Shown: in pieces, positions 462 through 20,248 of the stretch | Position numbering within the stretch: position 1 is the stretch's first letter | Layout of the letters: each line of letters opens with the position of its first letter | Source of the DNA: a virus | Strand: one strand, 5' to 3' | IMG/VR virus record: IMGVR_UViG_3300008216_001984 | Span: 1 to 20,882 of that record | DNA: 20,882 nt | The notes under the pieces: model-generated | Told to the model about the DNA's origin: nothing | The model's database searches: none | Seen by the model: only the letters and a program-made list of their open reading frames with translations | Translations under genes and position numbers: made by a program

Positions 462-707
462 TTAATGTCCTAATTTAGAGTTTAACTCTACGGCCTCGTT
501 GTGAGTCATACATTTCATCTCTAATACCTTGACGAAAGGTTTACCAACCTGATACTTAATTCCTTGTACTAGATTGTCGTAATTAACTCCAACCATGTCC
601 ATACAAACCTCTTTAGTAGGATGGGGATTAGTCCATTGAACCCAGCCTTTATCTGGTGTATGCGTAGTTACTATCAAAGCACTTATAAAATACATAGTTA
701 TCATCAT
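462..707 (-). CDS. Small protein with hydrophobic N-terminus, unknown
   Basis: About 81 aa, read from the ATG at 707, whose ATGA overlaps the stop of the SQD1-like gene. A GTG at 716 is a possible longer start (84 aa) and an ATG at 704 a shorter one. Residues 1-15 (MMITMYFISALIVTT) are hydrophobic and could be a short signal peptide or membrane segment. The rest is polar, with two cysteines, and matches no family I recognise. It sits between two sugar-nucleotide genes and is co-transcribed with them. A secreted or membrane-anchored accessory protein is possible, but nothing in the sequence assigns a function. Confidence 0.65.
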   Translation of the reverse strand: MMITMYFISALIVTTHTPDKGWVQWTNPHPTKEVCMDMVGVNYDNLVQGIKYQVGKPFVKVLEMKCMTHNEAVELNSKLGH

Positions 708-1834
708 AACACCCACTTGGTTTTAGGTTCTATAGAATTGAGACGGACTCTATCTAAGAATGGAGATATTGCATCTGCCATTTCCTGTATTAGTCCTGCA
801 GTTAGAAAGTGTGGAGTAAGTCCATCCAGGATAAAGCTATCATTTACGGGAGAGTAGTAGTGTTGCTCTGCTTCTACTCTTGGATTTGGGAGTTCTTCTA
901 TTTTACCGCCTATAGCTTTTACAACACAGTCAGCTATGTGCATGACGCAGTACTTCTGTGTGTATTGATTTCTTACTTTAAACTCTCCAGGAGCGGCAGG
1001 GACTTCTGCAGCTATCTGTACACATTTCATAGTGTCTCTTATATCAAGGAAGCCTCTCTGCTGACCTCCTGTTCCATAAACAGTTATTGGTATGCCCAGT
1101 AGGGACTGTACTATAAACCTGTTTAGAACGGTTCCAAAGGTTTCATCGTAGTGGAAGCTGGTTCTGTTATTAGAGTCATATGGGCCATCCTCTGTCCCTA
1201 CCCCATATACTATTCCTTGGTTAAGATCAGTGACTCGTAGTCCCCATATTCTACAGGTAAATTCTAGGTTGTGGGAGTCGTGAACCTTTGATAGATGATA
1301 GAAGGAACCTGGCCGCTTGGGGAAGAGAACTCTATCTTCTCTCCCTTTATGTGTTATATCAAGCCAACCTTCTTCTATGTCTATATTAGGGGTCCCATAC
1401 TCTCCCATAGTTCCTAGCTTTATTATATGGATATCTGGATTTACCTTCTTGACGGCGAACATAAGATTCAAGGTTCCCGCGATATTGTTCACCTGGGTTT
1501 CTATTGCAGCAGACCTGCTCCTCATGGAGAAGGGCGCGGAGGGCTGCTCTGCGTAATGTACTATAGTGTTTATTCGATCGTTTTCTAGTATGTTGCATAG
1601 AGTTTTAAACCCTTCTTCTTTTGATAGGTCGAAAATGTGGCAAGGCATATTATCGAACTGCTTTGCTCTAACTTCTAATAGCTCTGGTAGTATTAGAGGA
1701 GTTACCCCTATACTTCTTTCCATTCTTCTTTTTAAGTAGTTATCAGCTACTGTGACGTTGTGATTTCTGGCCTTAAAGTGTAGCGCTGTGGGCCAGCCTA
1801 GATATCCATCGGCCCCCAGTATTAAAACATTCAT
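704..1834 (-). CDS. UDP-sulfoquinovose synthase (SQD1)-like NAD-dependent epimerase
   Basis: A 376-aa extended short-chain dehydrogenase/reductase. SQD1 enzymes convert UDP-glucose plus sulfite to UDP-sulfoquinovose using bound NAD+. The Rossmann motif is GADGYLGW (residues 7-14), where SQD1 has GGDGYCGW. Residues 141-156 (GTMGEYGTPNIDIEEG) reproduce the SQD1 signature, with T142 and E145 at substrate-contacting places. YHLSK (179-183) gives the catalytic Tyr and Lys. FYHLSKVHDSHN, TDLNQGIVYG, RGFLDIRDT and PNPRVEAEQHYY also follow plant and bacterial SQD1 closely, and the length fits. It overlaps its upstream neighbour by ATGA at 1831-1834 and its downstream one at 704-707. SQD1-like enzymes also occur in surface-glycan clusters, so the exact sugar is uncertain, but the subfamily call is firm. 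Confidence 0.92.
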   Translation of the reverse strand: MNVLILGADGYLGWPTALHFKARNHNVTVADNYLKRRMERSIGVTPLILPELLEVRAKQFDNMPCHIFDLSKEEGFKTLCNILENDRINTIVHYAEQPSAPFSMRSRSAAIETQVNNIAGTLNLMFAVKKVNPDIHIIKLGTMGEYGTPNIDIEEGWLDITHKGREDRVLFPKRPGSFYHLSKVHDSHNLEFTCRIWGLRVTDLNQGIVYGVGTEDGPYDSNNRTSFHYDETFGTVLNRFIVQSLLGIPITVYGTGGQQRGFLDIRDTMKCVQIAAEVPAAPGEFKVRNQYTQKYCVMHIADCVVKAIGGKIEELPNPRVEAEQHYYSPVNDSFILDGLTPHFLTAGLIQEMADAISPFLDRVRLNSIEPKTKWVL

Positions 1835-2025
1835 TTCTCTAGGCCTCCCTGCCTCACTATCTTATTGAACTTGTTCATAGGTAGTTTAGATGCTACCCAT
1901 CCATATATAGTATTGTACTTTACACCGTGTGCCATGCAAGTACCTACTAGCCTGTATAGATAAGAACTGTTCCGTTTATCAACTGCTAGTTCTATCTCTT
2001 CTCTTATCGTAGTGTTCTTTACCAT
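1831..2025 (-). CDS. Small basic protein, possible helix-turn-helix, unknown
   Basis: 64 aa, starting 1 bp after the neuA stop and overlapping the SQD1-like start by ATGA, so it is translated within the operon. Residues about 30-47 (MAHGVKYNTIYGWVASKL) have the rhythm of a helix-turn-helix recognition segment, and the protein is basic. This is weak evidence for DNA binding. No family is recognised. Its place between neuA and the SQD1-like gene suggests a regulator or an accessory peptide, which is inference from position only. Confidence 0.6.
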   Translation of the reverse strand: MVKNTTIREEIELAVDKRNSSYLYRLVGTCMAHGVKYNTIYGWVASKLPMNKFNKIVRQGGLEK

Positions 2026-2026
2026 C

Positions 2027-2731
2027 TTAAGTCTCCCATATTCCTAGTGCGTTGGCTTCTATTAATGCGTCTGCTATAAGTAAGTCGTCTCTTCCGTCGA
2101 TATCCATACTATCATAGATTCCTATTGGAACAGCCGCTGATGGTTGTGCAAATACTATTCCCTTCTCCAAGCTCTCTGTCTTGGTTATGACCAGGTTTCC
2201 AAACTTATATAGTATTGGTTTCTTCTCCTTATTATATGCCCACTCTCTCTGGTTGTATGCCCAGGTTACTCGCCCTTGCTTTAACACTCTTTGGTTCCAC
2301 GCATGATAGTTATGTGGAACTTTGCATACTGTTTGTACACTCTGTAGATCTGGCTCTTCCTTCAATCTCTTTATACATTCATTTATCTGATAGGGGAGGA
2401 GAAAGGGACTTGTGGGCTGAATAAGGGCGATTGCGTAATGTCGCTCCTCATCCTGCCCATAGTAGGTGTTAATAAAGTTTGTGAGTACCTTACCAATGGG
2501 CGTGTCGGCCTTAGTAAGATGCTCTGGTCTATTAACGACCTCTATTCCCTTTCTCCTCGCTAAGTTGGCTACTGGTTCACTATCAGTGGAGCAAACTCTA
2601 TCTGTAATAGAGCTAGCTTTTAGTGCTTCTATGCAGTATGATATTAGATGCTCTCCTCCTAATAGAGCCATGTTTTTATGCTCTATAGATTTGGAACCGG
2701 CTCTTGCTGGGATAAATCCTAGTATTCTCAC
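2027..2731 (-). CDS. neuA: CMP-nonulosonic acid synthetase (acylneuraminate cytidylyltransferase, NeuA-type)
   Basis: 234 aa, the usual length for this family. The enzyme would transfer CMP from CTP to a nonulosonic acid, giving the activated donor used by glycosyltransferases. The N-terminal IPARAGSKSIEHKN (residues 7-20) is the nucleotide-binding P-loop-like motif of NeuA/CMP-KDO synthetases. STDS (48-51), QPTSPF (105-110) and the C-terminal MDIDGRDDLLIAD (209-221, with Asp210 and Asp212 for metal binding) are all intact. It overlaps the upstream hydrolase gene by ATGA (2728-2731). With the NeuC- and NeuB-type genes in the same operon it completes the three-step route. Specificity for Neu5Ac versus legionaminic or pseudaminic acid is not visible in the sequence. 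Confidence 0.93.
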   Translation of the reverse strand: MRILGFIPARAGSKSIEHKNMALLGGEHLISYCIEALKASSITDRVCSTDSEPVANLARRKGIEVVNRPEHLTKADTPIGKVLTNFINTYYGQDEERHYAIALIQPTSPFLLPYQINECIKRLKEEPDLQSVQTVCKVPHNYHAWNQRVLKQGRVTWAYNQREWAYNKEKKPILYKFGNLVITKTESLEKGIVFAQPSAAVPIGIYDSMDIDGRDDLLIADALIEANALGIWET

Positions 2732-3162
2732 TTCAAATCCTTTCGTTCCCAGCGATAGAAGGCATGATTTCCTATTACAGTTGTTAGACTCTTAGTTTCT
2801 GCCCAGTCTGGAAAGATATAGTCAGCGTGGTAGTGAGTTGCTCCTTTAGTAACTGGGGGATAGTTAGCTTTAGTTACTAATTGTGCTATTAGGTATGCCC
2901 ATGCAAATGCTTCTTTATCTTTAGCCTTGTCGCTTTTGCCATCACAGTACCAGCTAAACTGACACTTATGTCGCACAGGAAACGCGGTTTTTGCATAGAC
3001 AGGTCCTTGCATTACCACCTTGCATATATCGTCAGGATATCGTGGGTCTTCTACCCTATTCATTACTACTTCTGCTACTGCTACTTGACCTACTATATCT
3101 TGATCTCTTGACTCAAAATATATATTGAGTGCTAGGCACATAATAGCTGTTGTGCCTATCAT
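2728..3162 (-). CDS. SleB-type cell wall hydrolase (probable endolysin)
   Basis: 144 aa. It has the layout of the Hydrolase_2/SleB family, which cleaves peptidoglycan, and phages use such proteins as endolysins. The start LALNIYFESRDQ carries the family's Glu (E17), followed by GQVAVAEVVMNRV (25-37), DICKVV, CQFSWYCDG (67-75) and GATHYHA (107-113), in the expected order for the catalytic fold. The N-terminus is only mildly hydrophobic and shows no clear signal peptide, so release would normally need a holin. It lies inside the sugar operon, overlapping the dehydrogenase stop and the neuA start by ATGA on both sides. A 33-aa membrane peptide two genes upstream is a possible partner. SleB proteins are also known as spore-cortex enzymes, but the phage setting favours lysis. 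Confidence 0.88.
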   Translation of the reverse strand: MIGTTAIMCLALNIYFESRDQDIVGQVAVAEVVMNRVEDPRYPDDICKVVMQGPVYAKTAFPVRHKCQFSWYCDGKSDKAKDKEAFAWAYLIAQLVTKANYPPVTKGATHYHADYIFPDWAETKSLTTVIGNHAFYRWERKDLK

Positions 3163-4043
3163 CTTACTCTACCTATAACTTCATATATCACCGCGCGTTC
3201 TGTTGCGCTCCAAGCGCTTATTGTACTCCCCCCTATGTGGGGAGTAAGTATTAGATTGTCTTCTCGTCTAGCGTATTCACAGACAGAAGAGTACATAGGA
3301 GTGAAGCCTGGCTCAAATTCATTTGGCAGAACGTCTAGCGCAGCTCCTGCTAATTCTCCTAGATCTAACATGGTTAGTAAATAGTCAGTGTCGATCAGCT
3401 CTCCTCTGGCGGTATTAACCACAAAGGCTGAACGTCTTAGCAACTTCAGTTTGTCTTTACTAATTATAGGTTGGGTATCTTCGTCTCTTACAGAGGCAGT
3501 TACTGCTAGTACGTCACAGTATAATAGGACTACTGCATCTGTGTCTGTATCTACTAGTGTGACCTTCTCGAATATAGGAGTAGCCATCTTATGCAGCATC
3601 TTCCCTATCCTCCCTGCACCCCATATACATAAGTGCATTTCTGATAACATCTTTTCTGCAGGTCTAATTGTACGGTTCCACATACCCCAACTTGCTTCAG
3701 TGTGATAAGCTGGTATTCCTCTATGCACAGCGAGGATTAGTCCTAAGGTATGCTCAGCAGTAGCCGTTATCATTTTCATATCTGGGTTATTCCAGTTAGA
3801 TATGATCGTAATCTGATCACTGTCTAGAGTAGGTTTGAATGAAGTGTTCATAACTAGATATCTTGTATCAGGATATCTACCTTTTATAAAGTCGTATCCC
3901 AGGGGCCAGAAGACAACCTCTTCTCCAGACCTCCCTCCATCTGGAAAGGGTTGCCTGGTTAGCTCGAAGTTCTTGTCTATGAGATCTATATTATCGTCTT
4001 GCCACCCTAGGCAGTCGAAATATAATGCAGTTGGTTTACTCAT
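3159..4043 (-). CDS. NAD-dependent D-2-hydroxyacid dehydrogenase (phosphoglycerate dehydrogenase-like)
   Basis: 294 aa from the ATG at 4043. That start is chosen because it overlaps the stop of the 33-aa upstream gene by ATGA; a GTG at 4055 would add 4 residues. The cofactor domain shows GAGRIG (about 142-147) with an acidic residue at the end of the next strand (LVDTD). The family catalytic triad is present: Arg213 in NTARGELID, Glu242 in DVLPNE and His269 in TPHIGGST, with Arg-Glu spacing as in SerA. The N-terminal substrate domain is divergent, and there is no C-terminal ACT domain. The substrate cannot be inferred. In this operon it might oxidise or reduce a keto/hydroxy acid linked to PEP supply or to the sugar acid, which is speculation. 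Confidence 0.88.
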   Translation of the reverse strand: MSKPTALYFDCLGWQDDNIDLIDKNFELTRQPFPDGGRSGEEVVFWPLGYDFIKGRYPDTRYLVMNTSFKPTLDSDQITIISNWNNPDMKMITATAEHTLGLILAVHRGIPAYHTEASWGMWNRTIRPAEKMLSEMHLCIWGAGRIGKMLHKMATPIFEKVTLVDTDTDAVVLLYCDVLAVTASVRDEDTQPIISKDKLKLLRRSAFVVNTARGELIDTDYLLTMLDLGELAGAALDVLPNEFEPGFTPMYSSVCEYARREDNLILTPHIGGSTISAWSATERAVIYEVIGRVR

Positions 4044-4141
4044 ATCGATTGCCACTCTGTTACTAATAGGTATATTACTATGATCCAGCCAATTAGCATT
4101 AGCTTTCTATAGGTGCGTATTAGTAGATCTATAAACTCCAT
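4040..4141 (-). CDS. 33-aa single-membrane-segment microprotein
   Basis: Below a 60-codon cutoff and found by reading the gap between the dehydrogenase and neuC. The ATG at 4141 overlaps the neuC stop (TAATG), and the TGA at 4040-4042 overlaps the dehydrogenase ATG (ATGA), so it fills the gap exactly. The product starts MEFIDLLIRTYRKLML and continues IGWIIVIYLLVTEWQSI. A short amphipathic N-terminus with Arg/Lys (9, 12, 13) is followed by one hydrophobic segment at about 15-27, consistent with an inner-membrane peptide. It lies two genes from the SleB hydrolase. A small holin-like role is possible but unproven. The double translational coupling is the main evidence that it is real. Confidence 0.7.
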   Translation of the reverse strand: MEFIDLLIRTYRKLMLIGWIIVIYLLVTEWQSI

Positions 4142-5265
4142 TATAGGTCTCCCTTTACTATACATTCTAGTCCACTAAATACTGCGTCTGTGGCATTGCC
4201 TTTACCGTATGGAAAGGATCTTTCTCCTAGCACAGCGCGATCTACTGTGTGGTTCTTTAGCCAGGTTAGTGTTGAACCCAGATTTTTATGAGTCCTAACA
4301 TGAAAGACTCCACAGTCCCTAGCCCTACCTTCCTGTCTCGTTCCTATGTCTATGGAGATTGTTTCTACGAAGGGAGCTTCTTTTATTCCAGCAGAGCTGT
4401 TTCCTACCATGAGGTCTGCATCTGTTAGAAGTCTACGGAATACACGACCAGGTATGTTTTGAAATACCATAGCTTCTCCCCGCGTCTCAAACTCGTGCAG
4501 TGTATCTATTATATATTCATTCCCAGGGTCTGAGCATGGATAGATCGCTATTATGTGGTAGTTGTAATCTACTAACTCTTGGAGTACCCTATGAGCAAAG
4601 TCTCCTGTATCTAGTCTAGTATGATCACCATAATCTTCTATCACAGGGTGCATTAGGAAGATAGCTGTTTGCTTACTAACTATTGGCTTTGGGTAGTAGC
4701 TTTGGATCCATAACTCGGCCTCCTCTGTTGTAGCTATATCTTTATAGGCATCTAGGTGAAGATCCCCTGACACTGTTGTATGAGTTATCTTCTCTACTCG
4801 TCTTTCTGCATCTTCGTGAGGTGCGAAGGCATAGTCTGCCATGCAGGTAATAGCCATCCTTGTGGGATCATCTATTGTACCCGTTACCTCTCCTGCTTCT
4901 AGGTGTATTATCTTTACTTCATTGATAAGGGCAGCTTGAGCAGCAGCGAGTGATTCTCCCCTATCTCCGTATAATATCAGAGTATCTAGGAGCGTACATA
5001 TCTCAGTCATTTCCTTCATCACCTTAGAACAGTTATAACTTCTATTCGTGCAGGTGTTTCCAGCTATGGCTGTTATATATGTTATCTTAGTTTCTGGCTG
5101 AAGGTGTCCTTTGACATATAGGTGGGTGTCTCCAAACATCTTCATCATATGTTGATCGCACACTATGACAAATAGGTTGGCCCACTCAGCTTCCTCTAAT
5201 CGTTTTATAAGGGGGAGCATAGCATCGAAGCCACCACGCTTTCCTGTTAGTATACCAATATTCAT
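4141..5265 (-). CDS. neuC: Hydrolysing UDP-N-acetylglucosamine 2-epimerase (NeuC-type)
   Basis: 374 aa with a GT-B-like two-domain fold. It would hydrolyse and epimerise UDP-GlcNAc (or a diacetamido derivative) to ManNAc plus UDP, the first step toward nonulosonic acids. Motifs in order: GDRGE (100-104), HLEAGEVTGTIDDPTRMAIT (121-140), YPCSDPGNE (242-250), GNSSAGIKEAP (288-298), GTRQEGR (308-314) and PYGKGNAT (352-359). These are the hallmarks of the NeuC/GDP-like hydrolysing subfamily rather than the reversible WecB type. An AAAGGA 6 nt before the ATG is a good ribosome site. It is preceded by the 101-aa gene after 14 bp and is coupled to the 33-aa peptide downstream. All diagnostic residues appear intact. 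Confidence 0.93.
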   Translation of the reverse strand: MNIGILTGKRGGFDAMLPLIKRLEEAEWANLFVIVCDQHMMKMFGDTHLYVKGHLQPETKITYITAIAGNTCTNRSYNCSKVMKEMTEICTLLDTLILYGDRGESLAAAQAALINEVKIIHLEAGEVTGTIDDPTRMAITCMADYAFAPHEDAERRVEKITHTTVSGDLHLDAYKDIATTEEAELWIQSYYPKPIVSKQTAIFLMHPVIEDYGDHTRLDTGDFAHRVLQELVDYNYHIIAIYPCSDPGNEYIIDTLHEFETRGEAMVFQNIPGRVFRRLLTDADLMVGNSSAGIKEAPFVETISIDIGTRQEGRARDCGVFHVRTHKNLGSTLTWLKNHTVDRAVLGERSFPYGKGNATDAVFSGLECIVKGDL

Positions 5266-9980: not shown

Positions 9981-10061
9981 CTAATGTACTATTAAGTAGG
10001 AAGCTAAAACTATCCCTACCATTATCATTGCATAGCCGAATGCTAATTGTTTATCTATCAT
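9981..10061 (-). CDS. 26-aa single-membrane-segment microprotein
   Basis: Found in the gap between 9900 and 10058. The ATG at 10061 overlaps the stop of the zinc-ribbon gene (ATGA), with GGAGGGATGAGCC immediately upstream as a strong ribosome site. The product is MIDKQLAFGYAMIMVGIVLA followed by SYLIVH: a short polar start and one hydrophobic segment (about 8-25). Coupling and ribosome site make it likely real. Function unknown; it belongs to the same class as the peptides at 4040-4141 and 18206-18283. Confidence 0.68.
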   Translation of the reverse strand: MIDKQLAFGYAMIMVGIVLASYLIVH

Positions 10062-10270
10062 GGCTCATCCCTCCTATATAGGTTATGTTGAAGTACAAAC
10101 TCAGCACCATAAACTGAGGGCTCTCCACATTCTTCGCACTCATACTTCTGAGCGTCGGGTTCACATCCGTCTTGCTCGATTCCACAAGAAATGCAGAGTC
10201 CAGGGTTCTCGGTTGTAGTCATATATCTTTCGTAAGATTTGGCTACTTGAGTCAATAGCGGTAAGGGCAC
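10058..10270 (-). CDS. Zinc-ribbon protein, 70 aa
   Basis: The start is a GTG at 10270. A GTG at 10276 lies inside the perfect GGAGGTGA ribosome site, so the codon just downstream is the better choice. It has CISCG, a lone Cys, then CEECG, a Cys-rich ribbon in the style of small phage and bacterial zinc-binding proteins, ending SVYGAEFVLQHNLYRRDEP. Such proteins often assist in nucleic-acid or protein binding. No specific role can be assigned. It follows the terminator at 10309-10328. Confidence 0.72.
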   Translation of the reverse strand: MPLPLLTQVAKSYERYMTTTENPGLCISCGIEQDGCEPDAQKYECEECGEPSVYGAEFVLQHNLYRRDEP

Positions 10271-10272
10271 TA

Positions 10273-10280
10273 TCACCTCC
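10273..10280 (-). promoter_or_regulatory. Perfect ribosome binding site before the zinc-ribbon gene
   Basis: The minus strand reads GGAGGTGA, complementary to the 16S rRNA 3' end over 8 bases. It decides the GTG start at 10270. Confidence 0.7.
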
Positions 10281-13133: not shown

Positions 13134-13331
13134 ATGTCAAAGCGCGAAGATATTACATTATGCTGCAAGATGTGCGGTGATGACCTCTCTCCTGGAGGCC
13201 ATAGACGCATAGGAATCTGCGCTTGGTGTATGGCGTCGAATAAGTATAAGGCAACAAGGATACCTGGAGTGCAGTATGGCAGATCAAGTTCGTACAACAC
13301 CGGGCGAGGATCGCCCTATATCCCCGAATAG
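13134..13331 (+). CDS. Small zinc-ribbon protein, 65 aa
   Basis: A CKMCG ... CAWCM pair of CxxC motifs (about residues 11-33) spaced by 18 residues makes a likely zinc ribbon, followed by a basic, Tyr/Arg/Gly-rich tail. It overlaps the portal start by 56 bp in another frame, a longer overlap than elsewhere in this genome, and no ribosome site is obvious before the ATG at 13134. The two CxxC motifs with correct spacing argue that it is genuine. It may be translated at low level. Confidence 0.55.
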   Translation: MSKREDITLCCKMCGDDLSPGGHRRIGICAWCMASNKYKATRIPGVQYGRSSSYNTGRGSPYIPE

Positions 13332-15240
13332 TGAAGTATCTATACTTAACTCTATAAGGGAATTTAGAAAAGAAGCTAAGGATGCTAAGAAGCATCGTAT
13401 GTATGTTAACCAGATAAATAAAAATGCTTATCTGGGAAAGCAAGACTTTTCTCATAAGAGAAAGGGTCAGTCTAGGGAATTTCTTCCTAAGACTCCTGTA
13501 GCTATAGAACAGTTGACGGCATTTATAAAACGGGGATTGACCCAGTTTGGTGCTTGGTATGATGTTGAGCTATCTCCAGACTCTCCATCTCCTTTAGCAT
13601 CTCACGAGATCCGTAGTTTATTAAATTGCTTCCTGGACAACTGCTACACGTCGGACTATCAAAAAGAGAATTTAGCAACTATACTAACAGATGCAATTAA
13701 GGTTGCAGCTCTGGAGAGTCTAGCTATATTCAAGGTACACGGATTCCAGAAACCTGAACGTAAGTTTGTAGCTAAGAAGGGAAATATATCCGTTACTGGT
13801 GGTGAGATACTCCAAGGCGAGTCTGTATTAGAGACGGTTACTAGAAACGCTTGGAATCTTCGTGTAGATCTAATAAGACCTGAAGACTACTATCCAGATC
13901 CTACTGGGAGAAATATGTATGAGATACATGAAAGTGAGTTAGATCTATCCTCTGTAAAACGACTTGCTGAGCAAGGCATCTATGATAAGGCGGCTGTAGA
14001 TAGTATAGAGGAAGACTATAAGAAGATAGAAGAGGAATCGCGGCGTCCTGGTGATATGCAGCAAGATGAATCTCAGAATCCATCCTTTAGGAGACGCGTA
14101 GTAATAACAGAATTATGGGGAACTTTGTTGGATGAGAACGGAGACATTACCCATGAGAATATATTCTGTGCTATGGCTAATGATAAGTATATAATAAGAG
14201 CTCCTCAACCTAATCCCTTCTGGCATCAGAAGAGTCCCTTTGTACGGTTTCCTCTAATCCGTGTTCCATTCAGTGTATGGCATAAAGCTCTGTTTGATCA
14301 TGCCAGTCAGTTGAATATGGCCCTAAACGAAGTATTTAACCTTATTCTTGATGGTGGCATTTCATCTGTATGGGGGATAAAGCAAATACGAATAGATGAC
14401 CTTGAAGATCCTAGACAAGCGACTGATGGTATAGCACAAGGTGATACCCTAGCAGTAAAGAACACTCTCCCTCATGGAACTAAGGTTCTGGAGACAGTAT
14501 CTGAAGGAGAAGTACCTAGAGACTCTATGGCTGTGTTTGAGATGGTCAATAGAGAGTTTATGGCTGCTGCTCTTACTACAGAATTAAAGTTAGGCTCACT
14601 CCCTGCTAAACAAGTCAAAGCAACTGAAATTGTAGAGTTAAGTCAAAGTCAATCATTAACTATCGATAGTCTAGTAGCTGATGTAGAAGGCTATCTGACT
14701 GAACTACTGGAGAAGATTTTTCTTACTGTCTTACAGAACTTAGAAGTCACCCCAAGTGAATACATAGTTAATAGTGTAGGACTAGACGGTGCATTTCGAT
14801 TAGCTCAAATGGACAAAGCGACTCGATTCGCTACATTTGCTAACTTTTGTTCGTTTAAGGTCCACGGGCTTTCGAGCATTCTATCTAGGGTTCGAGACTT
14901 CCAAAAAATGGCATCCTTACTCCAGATGGTCACAGTCAATCCTATCCTACTACAGAGCTTCTACAAGAGATATAGTGGCGATAGAATCTTATCTCATATG
15001 ATGAAGACGCTCAATGTAAATCCCGAGAGAATAGAGAGGGATCACGAAGAACTAGCTAGAATAGATAAAGATATGCAAGAACTTCCAGCCTTCCAAAACC
15101 TCACGTCTCAGACAGGAGGAGCGGGGGGTAATGCAGGCAACGTAGGTGGTCCTGGTACTGGTGGAGATGAAGGTGCCGCAGAGATATCTGCCCTATCCAA
15201 TCCAACCGCTAGCCTTGCTGGGTTAGGTAATTCTCAATAG
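13276..15240 (+). CDS. Portal protein
   Basis: 654 aa. It would form the ring at the capsid vertex through which TerL threads DNA and to which the tail attaches. Recognisable stretches include the N-terminal helical arm (ILNSIREFRKEAKDAKKHRM), the clip/stem region FPLIRVPFSVWHKALFDHAS followed by LNMALNEVFNLILDGG, and VNREFMAAALTTELKLG. This matches the head-tail connector class seen with N4-gp56-type capsids. The end is a low-complexity Gly/Ala/Asn tail (SQTGGAGGNAGNVGGPGTGG). The GGAG 6 nt before the ATG at 13276 supports the start. It follows terL closely, as expected for a packaging and head operon. Confidence 0.88.
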   Translation: MADQVRTTPGEDRPISPNSEVSILNSIREFRKEAKDAKKHRMYVNQINKNAYLGKQDFSHKRKGQSREFLPKTPVAIEQLTAFIKRGLTQFGAWYDVELSPDSPSPLASHEIRSLLNCFLDNCYTSDYQKENLATILTDAIKVAALESLAIFKVHGFQKPERKFVAKKGNISVTGGEILQGESVLETVTRNAWNLRVDLIRPEDYYPDPTGRNMYEIHESELDLSSVKRLAEQGIYDKAAVDSIEEDYKKIEEESRRPGDMQQDESQNPSFRRRVVITELWGTLLDENGDITHENIFCAMANDKYIIRAPQPNPFWHQKSPFVRFPLIRVPFSVWHKALFDHASQLNMALNEVFNLILDGGISSVWGIKQIRIDDLEDPRQATDGIAQGDTLAVKNTLPHGTKVLETVSEGEVPRDSMAVFEMVNREFMAAALTTELKLGSLPAKQVKATEIVELSQSQSLTIDSLVADVEGYLTELLEKIFLTVLQNLEVTPSEYIVNSVGLDGAFRLAQMDKATRFATFANFCSFKVHGLSSILSRVRDFQKMASLLQMVTVNPILLQSFYKRYSGDRILSHMMKTLNVNPERIERDHEELARIDKDMQELPAFQNLTSQTGGAGGNAGNVGGPGTGGDEGAAEISALSNPTASLAGLGNSQ

Positions 15241-15254
15241 AAAGGTAAGAACAG

Positions 15255-15551
15255 ATGGCAGTAATAACTGATGGTCTAATAAAGAAGTTAGAGCAGATAT
15301 CTACGGATACACACCTACCTCTCGAAAAACGGCTAATAGACACCGCTGTTTGGTACCACAAGAACAAAGATACAATACCTAAATCTAACGTCGAGAAACG
15401 CGTAGAGTTTCTCGAGAAGACTTTTGACATATTCCTAGAGCTTATAGCTATGCAAGTAGAACGTACACAGAGGGTAGAAGGGTATGGAAGTGATAGCCTT
15501 TGGTTACCTAAGGGTATGACCTACTCCGGGGATTTAAAGGACTTTGGTTGA
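15255..15551 (+). CDS. Hypothetical protein, 98 aa
   Basis: A small helical protein (ITDGLIKKLEQISTDTHLPL), rich in charged residues, ending with LPKGMTYSGDLKDFG. AAAGG lies upstream of the ATG at 15255. It shares a stop/start overlap (TGATG) with the next, large gene, so the two are coupled. It could be a small head or accessory protein. No family is recognised. Confidence 0.72.
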   Translation: MAVITDGLIKKLEQISTDTHLPLEKRLIDTAVWYHKNKDTIPKSNVEKRVEFLEKTFDIFLELIAMQVERTQRVEGYGSDSLWLPKGMTYSGDLKDFG

Positions 15552-17206
15552 TGGCTGAGCCTACGCTTAATGAGATCTTTGATAATCTGACTGTAGACGA
15601 GATTAGACGACTAAAGGACGAGGTTAGTTCTACGGCTAGAAAGAGATTCGGAATGGGTCTACCTACAGGCATAATGGAGGGTGGACAATCACTGATACAT
15701 AGTCGAGGCCCACAGAGTGCATTAGCTGAAAAACTTAGAGACCTTGTAAAAGGGTTAACTGCACCTCAGGTGCCTATGGGAGAGATATCAAAGTTTGAGT
15801 CCTCTTTCTTTAAAGAGTTAGGGGCTGATATAGAAAAGAATTGGATGTCTTTTCTTCCTTGGGGTAAGTTTTTTAGGGCAGGTGGCAAGTTAGCACGGCA
15901 GAAGTTACTTCCGGGCACTCCTCCTCGTACAACTATAGGATCTAAGAAAGCTCGTAAAGGTCAAATTCCATATCTGTATCATGGATCATCAGATCCAGCA
16001 TACAAGGCTGGGACGCAGTTTACAAGAGGGTCTTCTGCAGAAGTTCGGATTCCAGGAACTTCTCTAACTAGAGATCCATCAGTGACTTCAAGAGAAGCAT
16101 TTTCTAGGAACATAGGGATAGGGCATAACTCAGCAACGGATGCCTTAACGAATCTAGCTTCCAGCTATGTAGTTAGAATGAATCCTAAGGCTATGAATGA
16201 AGTATTAAATATATCTCCAGGGGTCTATGCTAGTCGGCCCTATATGAAAAAACAAGAACTTACTGGTAGATTACTAGCTAAACCTCAATCTTTCTTTACC
16301 GAGCTGGAAATCTTTGCAACAACAGGTACTAGGCATGAGAGTATGGAGCCAGGAGATGTAGCGGCTTACATGGCTCAAGACCGAGACTTCTTAAGTCCTG
16401 AACAGTTTGATAAGAAATATCGTCTTAGTACTTCTATTAGATCTGGTATGCTTCCTCAGGATTTAGAAGGTAAACTGTTAGAGAGAGCAGAGAGGATAGT
16501 AACTAATATAGACGATAGTCGGCGGCTTTCTGGTAAATATCTTGACGCTGTTAATCAGGTATATGATTCTGCAACCCAAGCGTCTAGGAATCCAGTGCCT
16601 TATGTATTAGAAGGTCAAGGGGGAGTTGCAGGACGTGGGCCTACAGCTAGTAGTATAGACTATGTCCAACTGCAACGAACCAGACCATCTAACGGGGTTA
16701 AACTAATGAAGCGAGCTTTAGCTACGGGAAGTAGAGCTTATAGAGCGCAGTTATGGAATGCTCATAATAAGCATGGAGGCCCTATAGGAAAGATACTAGC
16801 TATGTTTAACAAGACTATACCTAATTTAGCTTTGTATCCTGATCCTAGTCGTTCTGATGCAGAGTTAGAGGTAGACCCTCGCTTTCCCCCATTAGTAAAG
16901 GATATAAAAGGAGCTAGAATTTTAGAAAAGATGACTAGGTACGCATGGGAGGCACAGTCAAGGAGAGCAACTGAGATAGCGGATCTCCCAGAGGGTCAGT
17001 ATGCTAGTAAAATGGCTATAGATTTACATAACGACGCCTATAGAAAGTATGTTAAGGCGAGAGAAACCTTGTATGATTATATTGACAAGATGGAAGTTTC
17101 TATGAAAGATGACTTTGATTATATAAAACATTACACTAACAAGTATCCTATGCACAACACTGAGTTCAGAGGTGTACACAATAGATACTTAGATAACGCA
17201 GAGTAG
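15551..17206 (+). CDS. Large protein with possible ADP-ribosyltransferase domain, 551 aa
   Basis: Read from the ATG at 15551, whose TGATG overlap with the previous stop and AAAGGA upstream favour it over a TTG at 15548. Residues about 140-260 show a pattern close to ADP-ribosyltransferase (ART) folds: YLYHGSS (141-147) as the motif-1 aromatic/His region, GTSLTRDP (169-176) as the S-T-S-like strand motif, and TELEIFATTG (250-259) with the E-x-E of the catalytic loop. The N- and C-terminal parts are helical with no known domain. It sits between portal and scaffold, a place for virion or injected proteins. An ART here would be unusual. The domain call is an inference by eye; the gene itself is certain. 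Confidence 0.8.
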   Translation: MAEPTLNEIFDNLTVDEIRRLKDEVSSTARKRFGMGLPTGIMEGGQSLIHSRGPQSALAEKLRDLVKGLTAPQVPMGEISKFESSFFKELGADIEKNWMSFLPWGKFFRAGGKLARQKLLPGTPPRTTIGSKKARKGQIPYLYHGSSDPAYKAGTQFTRGSSAEVRIPGTSLTRDPSVTSREAFSRNIGIGHNSATDALTNLASSYVVRMNPKAMNEVLNISPGVYASRPYMKKQELTGRLLAKPQSFFTELEIFATTGTRHESMEPGDVAAYMAQDRDFLSPEQFDKKYRLSTSIRSGMLPQDLEGKLLERAERIVTNIDDSRRLSGKYLDAVNQVYDSATQASRNPVPYVLEGQGGVAGRGPTASSIDYVQLQRTRPSNGVKLMKRALATGSRAYRAQLWNAHNKHGGPIGKILAMFNKTIPNLALYPDPSRSDAELEVDPRFPPLVKDIKGARILEKMTRYAWEAQSRRATEIADLPEGQYASKMAIDLHNDAYRKYVKARETLYDYIDKMEVSMKDDFDYIKHYTNKYPMHNTEFRGVHNRYLDNAE

Positions 17207-17211
17207 CTTAT

Positions 17212-17397
17212 ATGCCAGGTATAGTAAAAGACTCTGATAGTAAAATGACTCAGGCGTTATCTAGATATAACTATGAGGCTAAGCATAACTGTGTAGACTG
17301 TGAGAAGTTTCTAGACCCGTCTGCTTGCGACATAGTACAAGGCCCTATAGCTAAAAATGGAAGTTGTATGTTTCATAGTACGAGAGAGAAAAGATAA
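17212..17397 (+). CDS. Four-cysteine protein, high-potential iron-sulfur-like, 61 aa
   Basis: Cysteines at residues 27, 30, 39 and 52 (CVDCEKFLDPSACDIVQGPI then NGSC) follow the high-potential iron-sulfur protein (HiPIP) pattern C-x2-C-x8-C-x12-C, with a conserved Val-x-Gly and 'NG' before the last Cys. HiPIPs bind a 4Fe-4S cluster. Here it may instead bind zinc. It starts 5 bp after the large gene and is coupled to the next by TAATG. An iron-sulfur fold in a virion-region gene is unexpected; similar motifs are seen in some phage proteins, by my recollection. Confidence 0.72.
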   Translation: MPGIVKDSDSKMTQALSRYNYEAKHNCVDCEKFLDPSACDIVQGPIAKNGSCMFHSTREKR

Positions 17398-18209
17398 TGC
17401 CTGACCCTATTGACTACTCTGGTCGATTAAAAGAGCTACTAAAGGAGCCTTATGCAAACTCTCCTGAGTTGAGGGAAATCTATAGAAATGTAGGTAAGGG
17501 TCTAGGTACGTCTGGGAATAGGTTTGTGGACTTCACTCAGAGGCTTGGAGATCTTATAGGTTTTGGCTCGATTCAGGATATAGAAGGCTCTATAGATAGA
17601 TATAAACAGTCACAGTCAAAAGATACTGGAAAGTTACTAGGAGAACTATTACAGAGTGGATCTCAGTTAGTTCCTCCTGGAAGATTTGCTAGAGCCTTAC
17701 GTCAGGCGGGGTTGCCTACGTTGGGTAGAGTTCTTGAAGGAGAGGGAAGAGCTGCTGAGGGATACCTTACTAAGGAGGCAAGAGAGGCAGGTGTTAGGGA
17801 ACTTCTGAGGAGCTTTCGTCCCACGGGGGAAACTCCTATTGAGCTAGACTTAGTTCGAGACTTAGCAGAGCATTATCTACTGCGGAAAGCTGCTGTTGAT
17901 AGACCACCTAGTAGTCCCTTTCAAGTTAGAGATATTACTCCGTCTGATGTTACTCCGTCTGATGATAAACCTACTACTGATAAGTATGGATATGATAGAT
18001 CTGCTCCCGATATATATACTACGAATCCGGATCTAGGGCTAAACGACTATGGAATTTCTGTCCATAAATCTAAAGATGGTCCTTTTGTAATTAAGCGGAA
18101 GGGTAAAGCCCTGGGAATTGCTGATAGTTTGGAGTCAGCTAGTAAGCTAGTTTTGGATCATATAAAACGATTTGATGCAGAAGATACTACGGAGCCACCA
18201 AAGAAATGA
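17397..18209 (+). CDS. Hypothetical virion-region protein, 270 aa
   Basis: 270 aa, starting at the TAATG overlap. The N-terminal half is helical (KELLKEPYANSPELREIYRN; GKLLGELLQSGSQLV), the middle carries a Pro/Ser/Thr-rich linker with two copies of TPSD (about 180-187), and the C-terminus is a compact alpha/beta segment (GISVHKSKDGPFVIKRKGKA). The DNA has a perfect 15-bp tandem repeat at 17935-17964 that encodes the linker repeat. No family is recognised. It may be an internal or accessory head protein, by position. Confidence 0.75.
   Translation: MPDPIDYSGRLKELLKEPYANSPELREIYRNVGKGLGTSGNRFVDFTQRLGDLIGFGSIQDIEGSIDRYKQSQSKDTGKLLGELLQSGSQLVPPGRFARALRQAGLPTLGRVLEGEGRAAEGYLTKEAREAGVRELLRSFRPTGETPIELDLVRDLAEHYLLRKAAVDRPPSSPFQVRDITPSDVTPSDDKPTTDKYGYDRSAPDIYTTNPDLGLNDYGISVHKSKDGPFVIKRKGKALGIADSLESASKLVLDHIKRFDAEDTTEPPKK
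17935..17964. repeat. Tandem 15-bp repeat inside the 270-aa gene
   Basis: TTACTCCGTCTGATG twice head to tail with no mismatch, encoding VTPSD-like units. Probably a recent duplication in a flexible linker. Confidence 0.7.
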
Positions 18210-18293: not shown

Positions 18294-18554
18294 ATGCAAG
18301 AAGAATCTATAAAAATGATACATAAGGGACAAGCGTCCCAAGCAGTGAAGTTAGAAGTACAAGATGTTATCTTTAAACGTGAAGTTGATGTTATGAATAA
18401 ACTAATAGCATTCTATAGATCGGGGGAATTGACAAATGAACAACTAAGAGGTAGTATTGGGGAGATTGCAGGTCTCCGATCTGTATTAGAAGAGTTAGAA
18501 CGATCAATAAGACGTGGAATAAGTGAAACTGAAAAGGTGATAACAAATGGCTGA
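18294..18554 (+). CDS. Small helical protein, 86 aa
   Basis: AAGGAG 6 nt before the ATG at 18294. The protein is almost wholly helical and charged (SQAVKLEVQDVIFKREVDVM; LRGSIGEIAGLRSVLEELER), so it likely forms an oligomer or coiled coil. It overlaps the scaffold-like gene by 8 bp. By position it may be a small head-assembly factor. No family is recognised. Confidence 0.72.
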   Translation: MQEESIKMIHKGQASQAVKLEVQDVIFKREVDVMNKLIAFYRSGELTNEQLRGSIGEIAGLRSVLEELERSIRRGISETEKVITNG

Positions 18555-19290
18555 TTTTGAAGTAGCCCCAGATAGTATAAATACAAAGGAAGACCGCGAG
18601 AACTACGAGCAGTCTGCTTTTATACAACCCGGTTCTATATTAGATAATTTGAACCAGACCCCTCCTGATAATCCTGATACACCTACACCGGAAGCTCCGT
18701 TATATGACCTCAATATCGGGGGACAGGTGTTCAAGGTTCCAAAAGAACAATATGATGCTTATACAGTAGAAAAGGCTACACAGGAAGCCCAGATAGCATC
18801 TAGTCAACAACCAGTTCTAACAGAACCTGTACAGGAAGGAGATCCAGACTGGAAAGACTCTTTTTATGCAGATCCAGATGCTGCTATGGATAAGTTTAAG
18901 GCTGAAGTAGTTGATCATGTAAAAGAGGCTGTTCAGCAGGAATACACTAAGCAAGGTACTAAGGATCAATTCTGGAATGACTTTTATTCAGAGCATAAGG
19001 AACTAGAAGGGGAAAAAGGAATGGTTCTTCAAATTCTCCAGAATAATCCAAGCATAGGCGACCTACCTGTAACTCAGGCAGGTGGTGAACTTGCTAAACA
19101 GACAAAGGCGGAGTTACTCCGCATAGCTAAATCATACGGTGGAGCTCAAGAACAAGCTCAGGACCTTGGCCTCGTTGGTGCTGCTCAAGAAGTCCCTAGA
19201 GAACAATCACAAGAACAATCAGACGACACCCCGATTTCTCTTTCTGCTGCTCTGGACGAGCGTAGAAAGTCGAGATCTAAATCTAGCTAA
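18547..19290 (+). CDS. Capsid scaffold-like protein
   Basis: 247 aa, acidic and Gln/Glu-rich, low in aromatics, with disordered Pro/Thr stretches (QTPPDNPDTPTPEAP) and a helical centre. It ends in a short basic tail (SAALDERRKSRSKSS), the hallmark of scaffold C-termini that bind the capsid shell. AAAGGTGA lies before the ATG. It directly precedes the major capsid gene, the classic scaffold position. It would guide procapsid assembly and then leave. No protease is seen, so it may exit intact. Confidence 0.85.
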   Translation: MADFEVAPDSINTKEDRENYEQSAFIQPGSILDNLNQTPPDNPDTPTPEAPLYDLNIGGQVFKVPKEQYDAYTVEKATQEAQIASSQQPVLTEPVQEGDPDWKDSFYADPDAAMDKFKAEVVDHVKEAVQQEYTKQGTKDQFWNDFYSEHKELEGEKGMVLQILQNNPSIGDLPVTQAGGELAKQTKAELLRIAKSYGGAQEQAQDLGLVGAAQEVPREQSQEQSDDTPISLSAALDERRKSRSKSS

Positions 19291-19296: not shown

Positions 19297-19303
19297 ACAT
19301 AGT

Positions 19304-20248
19304 ATGGCCCAGTTTCAGTGGCAATTTGACGCTCCTAGTGGTGTTTTTAAGCAACACGCCTTATCAAGGCGTCTGTATTGGGCGGCACTAGAGAATAGCG
19401 TCTTTATGGATCATGTTGCACCTATCCCTGCCTTTGGCAAGGGTAAAGGTGAGAATGTGACTCTTACGAGGATTAGTAGCATTAGTGAACCTACTTCTGC
19501 TGATCTGACTGAGGGAGAGAGAATACCCGAAGATAGCCATTCGATCAGTACGACTTCGATCACCGTTGTCGAGATTGGTCGGGCGGTTCCGTTTACTAGC
19601 TTCGCGTCGGATCTTTCCTTTTTCAATCTCCAGAATAGCATCCAACGGCGTCTTCGTGACCAAATGCGTTTAGTCATGGATACTAAGGCTGCTGCGGCAT
19701 TTAAAAATGCCAAGATTAAGTATGCCCCGACTGGTCTTGCTTCTGGATCTTTCGACACTGATGGTACTCAGTCTACTACTGCTACCGCTAACTGGAATAT
19801 GTTTCATGTTGAGGAAGTCCGTGACTACCTCTTTGATACACTCCAGACACCCCCCGTAGAAGGTGACGACTATATTGCGATTTTCCGCACATTGGGACTT
19901 CGTGGTTTGAAACGTGACCCATCTTGGGAGGAGTGGCATAAGTACACTGATCCTCAAGCTAAGTTCAACAACGAAATCGGTCGTATTGAGAACGTCCGGC
20001 ACATTGAGACCAACCACGCTAATGCTCTTAGTAAAACGGGCACAGGCTCGGTTCTCGGTGAAGGCATTGTATTCGGTGCTGATTCAGTCGCTATGGCTGA
20101 AGTAGCAACTCCCGAACTTCGTGCCGCTATGCCAGACGATTTTGGTCGGTCCAAAGCTGTTGCTTGGTACGGTATCCTTGAGTTCGGACTTATCTGGGAT
20201 ACAGCTAACGCAGGCGAGGCCCGCGTTGTTCATGTTAACTCTGCGTAA
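19304..20248 (+). CDS. Major capsid protein, N4-gp56 type (HK97 fold)
   Basis: 314 aa from the ATG at 19304. It would form the icosahedral shell. Typical segments include RRLYWAALENSVFMDHVAPI, TLTRISSISEPTSADLTEGE, VEIGRAVPFTSFASDLSFFN, the loop region WEEWHKYTDPQAKFNNEIGR and an end near VAWYGILEFGLIWDT. This order resembles the N4-gp56-like family of HK97-fold capsids. Codon choice here (more CGT and C-ending codons) differs from neighbours, as expected for the most abundant protein. It follows the scaffold and precedes a likely decoration protein. The exact subfamily is by my recollection of the motifs; the major capsid identity is strong. Confidence 0.85.
   Translation: MAQFQWQFDAPSGVFKQHALSRRLYWAALENSVFMDHVAPIPAFGKGKGENVTLTRISSISEPTSADLTEGERIPEDSHSISTTSITVVEIGRAVPFTSFASDLSFFNLQNSIQRRLRDQMRLVMDTKAAAAFKNAKIKYAPTGLASGSFDTDGTQSTTATANWNMFHVEEVRDYLFDTLQTPPVEGDDYIAIFRTLGLRGLKRDPSWEEWHKYTDPQAKFNNEIGRIENVRHIETNHANALSKTGTGSVLGEGIVFGADSVAMAEVATPELRAAMPDDFGRSKAVAWYGILEFGLIWDTANAGEARVVHVNSA

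Follow-up and report, generated by a model that had tools for sequence, protein, structure and literature searches.

A predicted HiPIP-type protein without an export signal encoded in the head operon of an uncultivated phage

The Locus and Its Neighboring Genes

The window analyzed here is the whole of a virus contig of 20,882 bases. Between its genes for the portal and the major head protein, both identified with PHROGs, lies an open reading frame with an ATG start that encodes a protein of 61 aa, MPGIVKDSDSKMTQALSRYNYEAKHNCVDCEKFLDPSACDIVQGPIAKNGSCMFHSTREKR (table 1). The preliminary description, which was made from the letters alone, had placed this gene in a head module and reported a HiPIP-like cysteine motif, and both observations hold: Cys27, Cys30, Cys39, and Cys52 form the pattern C-x2-C-x8-C-x12-C, and Asn49-Gly50 precede the last Cys. 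The gene starts 5 nt past the stop codon of the 552-aa gene that precedes it, and at its 3' end the stop codon overlaps the start of the 270-aa gene downstream by one base (TAATG).

Table 1. Genes of the head module in the window and codons of interest in the HiPIP-like gene
Feature	Position	Strand	Basis or remark
Terminase large subunit	11216		PHROGs
Portal protein	13276..15240	+	phrog_1216, E=3.7e-12
98-aa conserved head-module gene, upstream of variable slot	15255..15551	+	48/97 relative loci
552-aa gene directly upstream, linked partner	15548..17206	+	Possible ADP-ribosyltransferase-like motif
HiPIP-like gene, 61 aa, without export signal	17212..17397	+	ORF, PDB phmmer, profile, predicted fold, N-terminus check
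Tyr19 codon	17266..17268	+	Tyr invariant N-terminal to first Cys in alignment A1, 24/24 rows
Cys27 to Cys30 codons, C-x2-C putative ligand pair	17290..17301	+	Aligned with PioC Cys22/Cys25
Cys39 codon, putative third ligand	17326..17328	+	Corresponds to PioC Cys34
Cys52 codon, putative fourth ligand	17365..17367	+	Ser in L298 and L311 orthologs
270-aa gene directly downstream	17397..18209	+	No Pfam or PHROG match
86-aa conserved head-module gene, downstream of variable slot	18294..18554	+	57/97 relative loci
247-aa protein, putative scaffold by position	18547..19290	+
Major head protein	19301..20248	+	phrog_1357, E=4.1e-16

The 552-aa protein matched no PHROG or Pfam family, a profile built from it found no relative in the PDB, and its AlphaFold2 model had a pLDDT of 35. 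Four aligned sequences of its family share a conserved H-G and a conserved Q-S-x3-E-x-E, which we take to resemble the motifs of ADP-ribosyltransferases. That the protein might be ADP-ribosyltransferase-like is an idea suggested by these residues; neither it nor three homologs matched a Pfam ART model. Elsewhere in the window, the translations of a gene run on the minus strand (704–5265) appear by eye to be of a sugar type, with epimerase-like, cytidylyltransferase-like, and UDP-GlcNAc 2-epimerase-like products, and two small Cys-rich ORFs with CxxC pairs (10058–10276, minus strand, and 13134–13331, plus strand) look zinc-finger-like by eye.

Sequence Family and Predicted Fold

In a phmmer search of the PDB with the 61-aa protein as a query, the only match below an E value of 1 was PioC from Rhodopseudomonas palustris (E=3e-4), which aligned without gaps over residues 24–56 with all four Cys in register; the other match up to E=10 was a zinc-finger protein at chance level (E=1.3). 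PioC (6xyv, 7a4l, 7a58) has the same x2, x8, and x12 spacing and is a solved [4Fe-4S] HiPIP whose cluster is bound by Cys22, Cys25, Cys34, and Cys47 (PMC7462912). A profile built from alignment A1, which comprises 24 sequences including the 61-aa protein, matched six PDB entries up to E=1, and all six are HiPIPs (PioC, 8e-16; 3h31, 6.8e-5; 1isu, 6e-4; 1hlq, 3.4e-3; 1eyt, 0.8; 3hip, 0.89). The Pfam HIPIP model (PF01355) matched neither the protein itself nor any part of the 20,882-base contig in a six-frame scan, and a Pfam and PHROG family search with the single protein gave no match. Among 14 standalone phage relatives scanned with the same Pfam model, four passed the cut-off, six fell below it, and four had no match.

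Because the search pattern described below fixes ten residues, we examined features that lie outside it. We built a profile from 25 standalone phage relatives; the 61-aa protein was left out of it, although the relatives derive from a pattern taken from its own contig. This profile scored the protein at 47.9 bits, whereas the best of 20,000 shuffles with the Cys residues fixed reached 25.0 bits, and the next best of the 312 frames in the whole contig had an E value of 0.28. When the shuffles kept all ten pattern residues in place, a stricter control, 47.9 bits was reached by 37 of 20,000 (mean 35.9, sd 3.6). A Tyr within the 16 residues preceding the first Cys, a position outside the search pattern, is present in 117 of the 118 testable phage relatives among the matches listed, and the 61-aa protein has Tyr19. 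Two other positions depart from the family: Ser51, directly before the fourth Cys, stands where Trp is common, and His55 occupies a position held by W, F, or Y in 118 of 120 relatives among the matches listed. The C-x-[FW]-H ending of the protein also occurs in a phage relative that passes the Pfam cut-off.

AlphaFold2 run on alignment A1 gave a model with a mean pLDDT of 81 (about 86–89 over residues 11–50) and a pTM of 0.55; because the relatives in the alignment were picked by motif, this prediction is not independent of the motif. All 17 Foldseek matches of the model up to E=10 are HiPIPs, with a best TM of 0.67 and weak E values (best 0.026). VIA-align superimposed 47 residues of the model on 1isu_A at 1.3 Å with a Z of 6.6, a middling value that, by the tool's own warning, is common when taken alone. 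The predicted fold is thus shared with PF01355 proteins such as those of Rhodocyclus tenue (1isu) and Rhodothermus marinus (3h31); the loop between the second and third Cys is shorter in the 61-aa protein than in the classical members.

The preliminary description had offered a zinc-ribbon fold as the finding that would count against its HiPIP reading. Structure prediction returned a HiPIP fold, no Pfam zinc ribbon matched the 61-aa protein, and none appeared among the 17 matches from Foldseek or the 6 from the profile. In the relative L067 a Pfam zinc ribbon scores 13.6 bits, below the cut-off of 27 and lower than the HIPIP match of the same protein, 16.6. We consider it very improbable that the 61-aa protein is a HiPIP relic that binds zinc or no metal: two aromatic residues are missing from it and two orthologs have Ser in place of a Cys, but an ortholog with 38% identity retains all four Cys and the Tyr, and the profile and fold matches are exclusively HiPIPs. 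With the PioC match, the profile, and the predicted fold behind it, the view that the gene encodes a HiPIP-type protein of the short-loop PioC kind is largely right as judged from sequence and model, and metal binding is predicted.

Relatives, Fusions, and the Export Signal

Although a protein search with the single 61-aa sequence found no relatives, a DNA pattern derived from the motif matched at least 120 stretches in uncultivated viral contigs. Among the matches listed, the motif lies in an open frame in 120 of 120, comprising 32 proteins of 150 aa or less and 88 longer ones; by this sequence criterion the HiPIP module is common in uncultivated phages, both as a standalone protein and as a fusion. 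Fusion partners among the matches listed include head-maturation proteases, capsid, portal, and tail proteins. A PHROGs scan of the 70 proteins with distinct module segments among the 88 longer ones listed, in which counts overlap, assigned 33 to phrog_80 and 10 to phrog_53 (both head maturation protease), 29 to phrog_617 (major head protein), 7 to phrog_5939 (tail), and 2 to phrog_2662 (portal). Once the module was masked, the 88 fused proteins listed fell into 14 groups without mutual similarity (54, 11, 7, 4, 2, 2, and eight single members), mostly in a few big ones, so the large fusion counts reflect few lineages; the predicted module is nevertheless joined to many unrelated partners. Pfam matches of single fusions comprise an S49 protease (L022), an S78 protease with a capsid protein (L070), two portal families (L002 and L003), and a Mu F-like head protein (L056). 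In four large proteins (L021, L031, L061, and L093) the segment F-A-x-G-G-x-V, where x is any residue, directly precedes a C-terminal-side module.

Large phage polyvalent proteins, which are likely packaged in the capsid, have been described to include fusions of InPase to a portal protein (PMC5512222); the text of that study does not contain "iron-sulfur," "Fe-S," or "high potential." L002 combines a portal protein, InPase, and the HiPIP module.

The same pattern occurs in at least 118 stretches of bacterial genomes that include, by record title, Rhizobiales, Acetobacteraceae, Acidithiobacillus, and Eremiobacterota. Bacterial HiPIPs reach the periplasm by Tat export and are described as periplasmic electron carriers, mainly of purple photosynthetic bacteria (PMC7462912). 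Among the standalone copies listed, with the 61-aa protein left out, a hydrophobic N-terminal segment is present in 96 of 113 cellular copies versus 1 of 31 phage copies (Fisher P=9e-18, with relatedness ignored), and a median of 60 residues precedes the first Cys in cellular copies versus 24 in phage copies among the matches listed. The stretch before Cys27 of the 61-aa protein contains neither a hydrophobic segment nor a twin Arg. Lacking the signal, the phage copies appear to reside in the cytoplasm or the virion, and the 61-aa protein, encoded in a head operon, differs in this from PioC with its role in photoferrotrophy.

Standalone copies are not confined to head modules, as the mixed neighbors indicate. 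Of 20 neighbors of standalone relatives scanned singly, three are named head genes (two terminase, one portal); the others comprise one each of PAPS reductase, RNase E, ParB-like, and DNA methyltransferase, two families of unknown function, and 11 without a match. In L010 (6428–9135) a standalone HiPIP-like gene lies between a terminase gene and a PAPS reductase gene, an arrangement that hints at sulfur chemistry; the terminase belongs to a set of 47 of 54 neighbors, the other 7 being duplicates or genes on the opposite strand. Among records of cultured phages, the module was found in Synechococcus phage S-SRM01, whose "hypothetical protein" QPX48026.1 has 67 aa, matches Pfam HIPIP at 23.7 bits, and has the same C-x-[FW]-H ending; the 10 kb stretch around its gene contains no annotated head genes. 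The L010 arrangement and this cyanophage copy would fit the product of an auxiliary metabolic gene, an electron carrier that acts in the cytoplasm and reroutes the metabolism of the host. For the 61-aa protein such a role seems most unlikely given the location of its gene in a head operon, the fusions to head proteins, and the linkage to a large head-slot protein described below.

One record carries the annotation in question without belonging to the family: in Actinomycetia phage DSL-LC01, a GenBank CDS (L242, 3052–3783) bears the name "high potential iron-sulfur protein" but matches neither Pfam HIPIP nor the family of the 61-aa protein, and with its CxxC motifs it perhaps represents a separate phage family. 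This phage also encodes a "capsid maturation protease" that matched the module (E=4.7e-7) with a profile that included the locus of the 61-aa protein itself. The main text of the paper on this phage (PMC10611076) mentions neither "iron" nor "HiPIP," and we found no paper on phage HiPIPs in the open-licence literature.

The preliminary description had not expected a virion operon to encode an Fe-S protein, a view that is only partly borne out. Fe-S clusters are known from lambda gpL-type tail hubs of phages, where those of RcGTA and roseophage R4C hold a four-Cys cluster in a virion protein, and the available passages of the two papers mention none in the head (PMC7296036, PMC10276861). As compared from those passages, the gpL-type protein is a tail hub and a different protein, whereas the 61-aa protein is encoded between portal and capsid genes.

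A Replaceable Cassette and a Possible Role for the Module

Searches with the terminase and capsid proteins yielded 97 relative loci; a portal-based search for relatives found none. The HiPIP profile matches six of the 97 loci, on five contigs. Three of these contigs (L244, L245/L262, and L260) share one protein that is 38% identical to the 61-aa protein over 58 aa, retains all four Cys, and is encoded directly before the 86-aa gene in a shared gene order, without a counterpart of the 270-aa gene. Where the locus extends far enough upstream (L244, L245, and L262), it follows a homolog of the 552-aa gene, and overall the HiPIP gene lies directly after such a homolog in all five loci (four contigs) that have one. 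Portal and capsid matches occur together in 47 loci, of which two (one contig) contain both the HiPIP gene and the 552-aa homolog and 45 contain neither, and the pair is therefore accessory. Over the 6,309 bases that lead up to this slot L243 and L244 share 99.65% identity, after which they diverge, with L243 encoding a 567-aa ORF there and no HiPIP, which suggests that the slot holds exchangeable cargo; the apparent swap between the 98-aa and 86-aa genes spans 6308–7997 in L243 and 6310–7944 in L244. Judged from these alignments, the HiPIP gene and its upstream gene travel as a replaceable cassette in the relatives.

These arrangements bear on whether the module is a targeting or docking tag that guides cargo, along with head enzymes, into the procapsid, acting here in trans on the 552-aa protein. 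The occurrence of the module at one or the other terminus of numerous head-associated proteins without mutual relationship, its linkage to the 552-aa gene, and the swapping of the slot between near-identical phages would all be compatible with such a tag. We nonetheless think it somewhat unlikely: tail proteins carry the module as well (7 of 70 among the matches listed), no binding surface was identified, and the protease and capsid fusions belong mostly to one large related group (54 of 88 among the matches listed).

The remaining two orthologs (L298, 2567–2812, and L311, 2721–2957) retain the Tyr, three Cys, and the Trp three residues past the fourth ligand position, which is Ser in both (TCC and TCT), so the full Cys set is not essential in all orthologs. 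They may represent HiPIPs with a natural Ser ligand, or else genes in decay. One of the Foldseek matches, 1js2, is titled as a C77S HiPIP with a serine-ligated cluster, and we take Cys77 to be its fourth ligand.

The reading we prefer, and consider moderately probable, is that the 61-aa protein is a HiPIP-fold protein with most likely one [4Fe-4S] cluster, serving mainly as a structural staple that accompanies head-loaded cargo. The cluster would be held by Cys27, Cys30, Cys39, and Cys52 and shielded by Tyr19 and other hydrophobic residues. Having no Tat signal, the protein would fold and receive its cluster in the cytoplasm of the host and would stay there, on or in the phage head. The cluster would probably staple together a very small, compact, oxygen-stable module, accompanying the 552-aa protein in this phage and fused in others to proteases, capsid polyproteins, portals, and tail proteins. 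A structural role is favored because the partners are varied, no electron partner was recognized nearby, and a variant with a Ser ligand survives.

Alternatively, the module could be a redox device in which [4Fe-4S]2+/3+ cycling switches assembly, protease activation, or an effector, or senses oxidants as the virion exits or enters a cell. HiPIPs are redox proteins, with a potential of +450 mV given for PioC (PMC7462912), the Tyr that would shield the cluster is retained along with most aromatics, and fusions to head proteases recur. This reading is in our judgment unlikely, since neither PHROGs nor Pfam recognized an electron partner among the neighbors, two orthologs lack the fourth Cys, and so high a potential would be expected to hold the cluster reduced in the cytoplasm.

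A broader proposal, which we consider about as likely as not, is that tailed phages have repeatedly acquired a short HiPIP, removed the signal for its export, and employ the [4Fe-4S] module as a standard block in head, portal, protease, and cargo proteins. They would then possess a class of virion Fe-S proteins, with natural Ser-ligated variants, built on a fold that has until now been linked to electron transfer in the periplasm. What is new is the context, that is, a predicted HiPIP fold without an export signal in phage head operons and head-protein fusions. If the proposal is correct, a redox-cofactor fold has been reused in virus assembly, phage assembly is tied to the Fe-S supply of the host, and virion heads contain iron.

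The slot has other occupants as well. In L264 (1629–3904) it encodes two proteins with HEIGHA and HEVGHA motifs that look metalloprotease-like by eye, and both have sub-threshold matches to LPD23 (large polyvalent protein associated).
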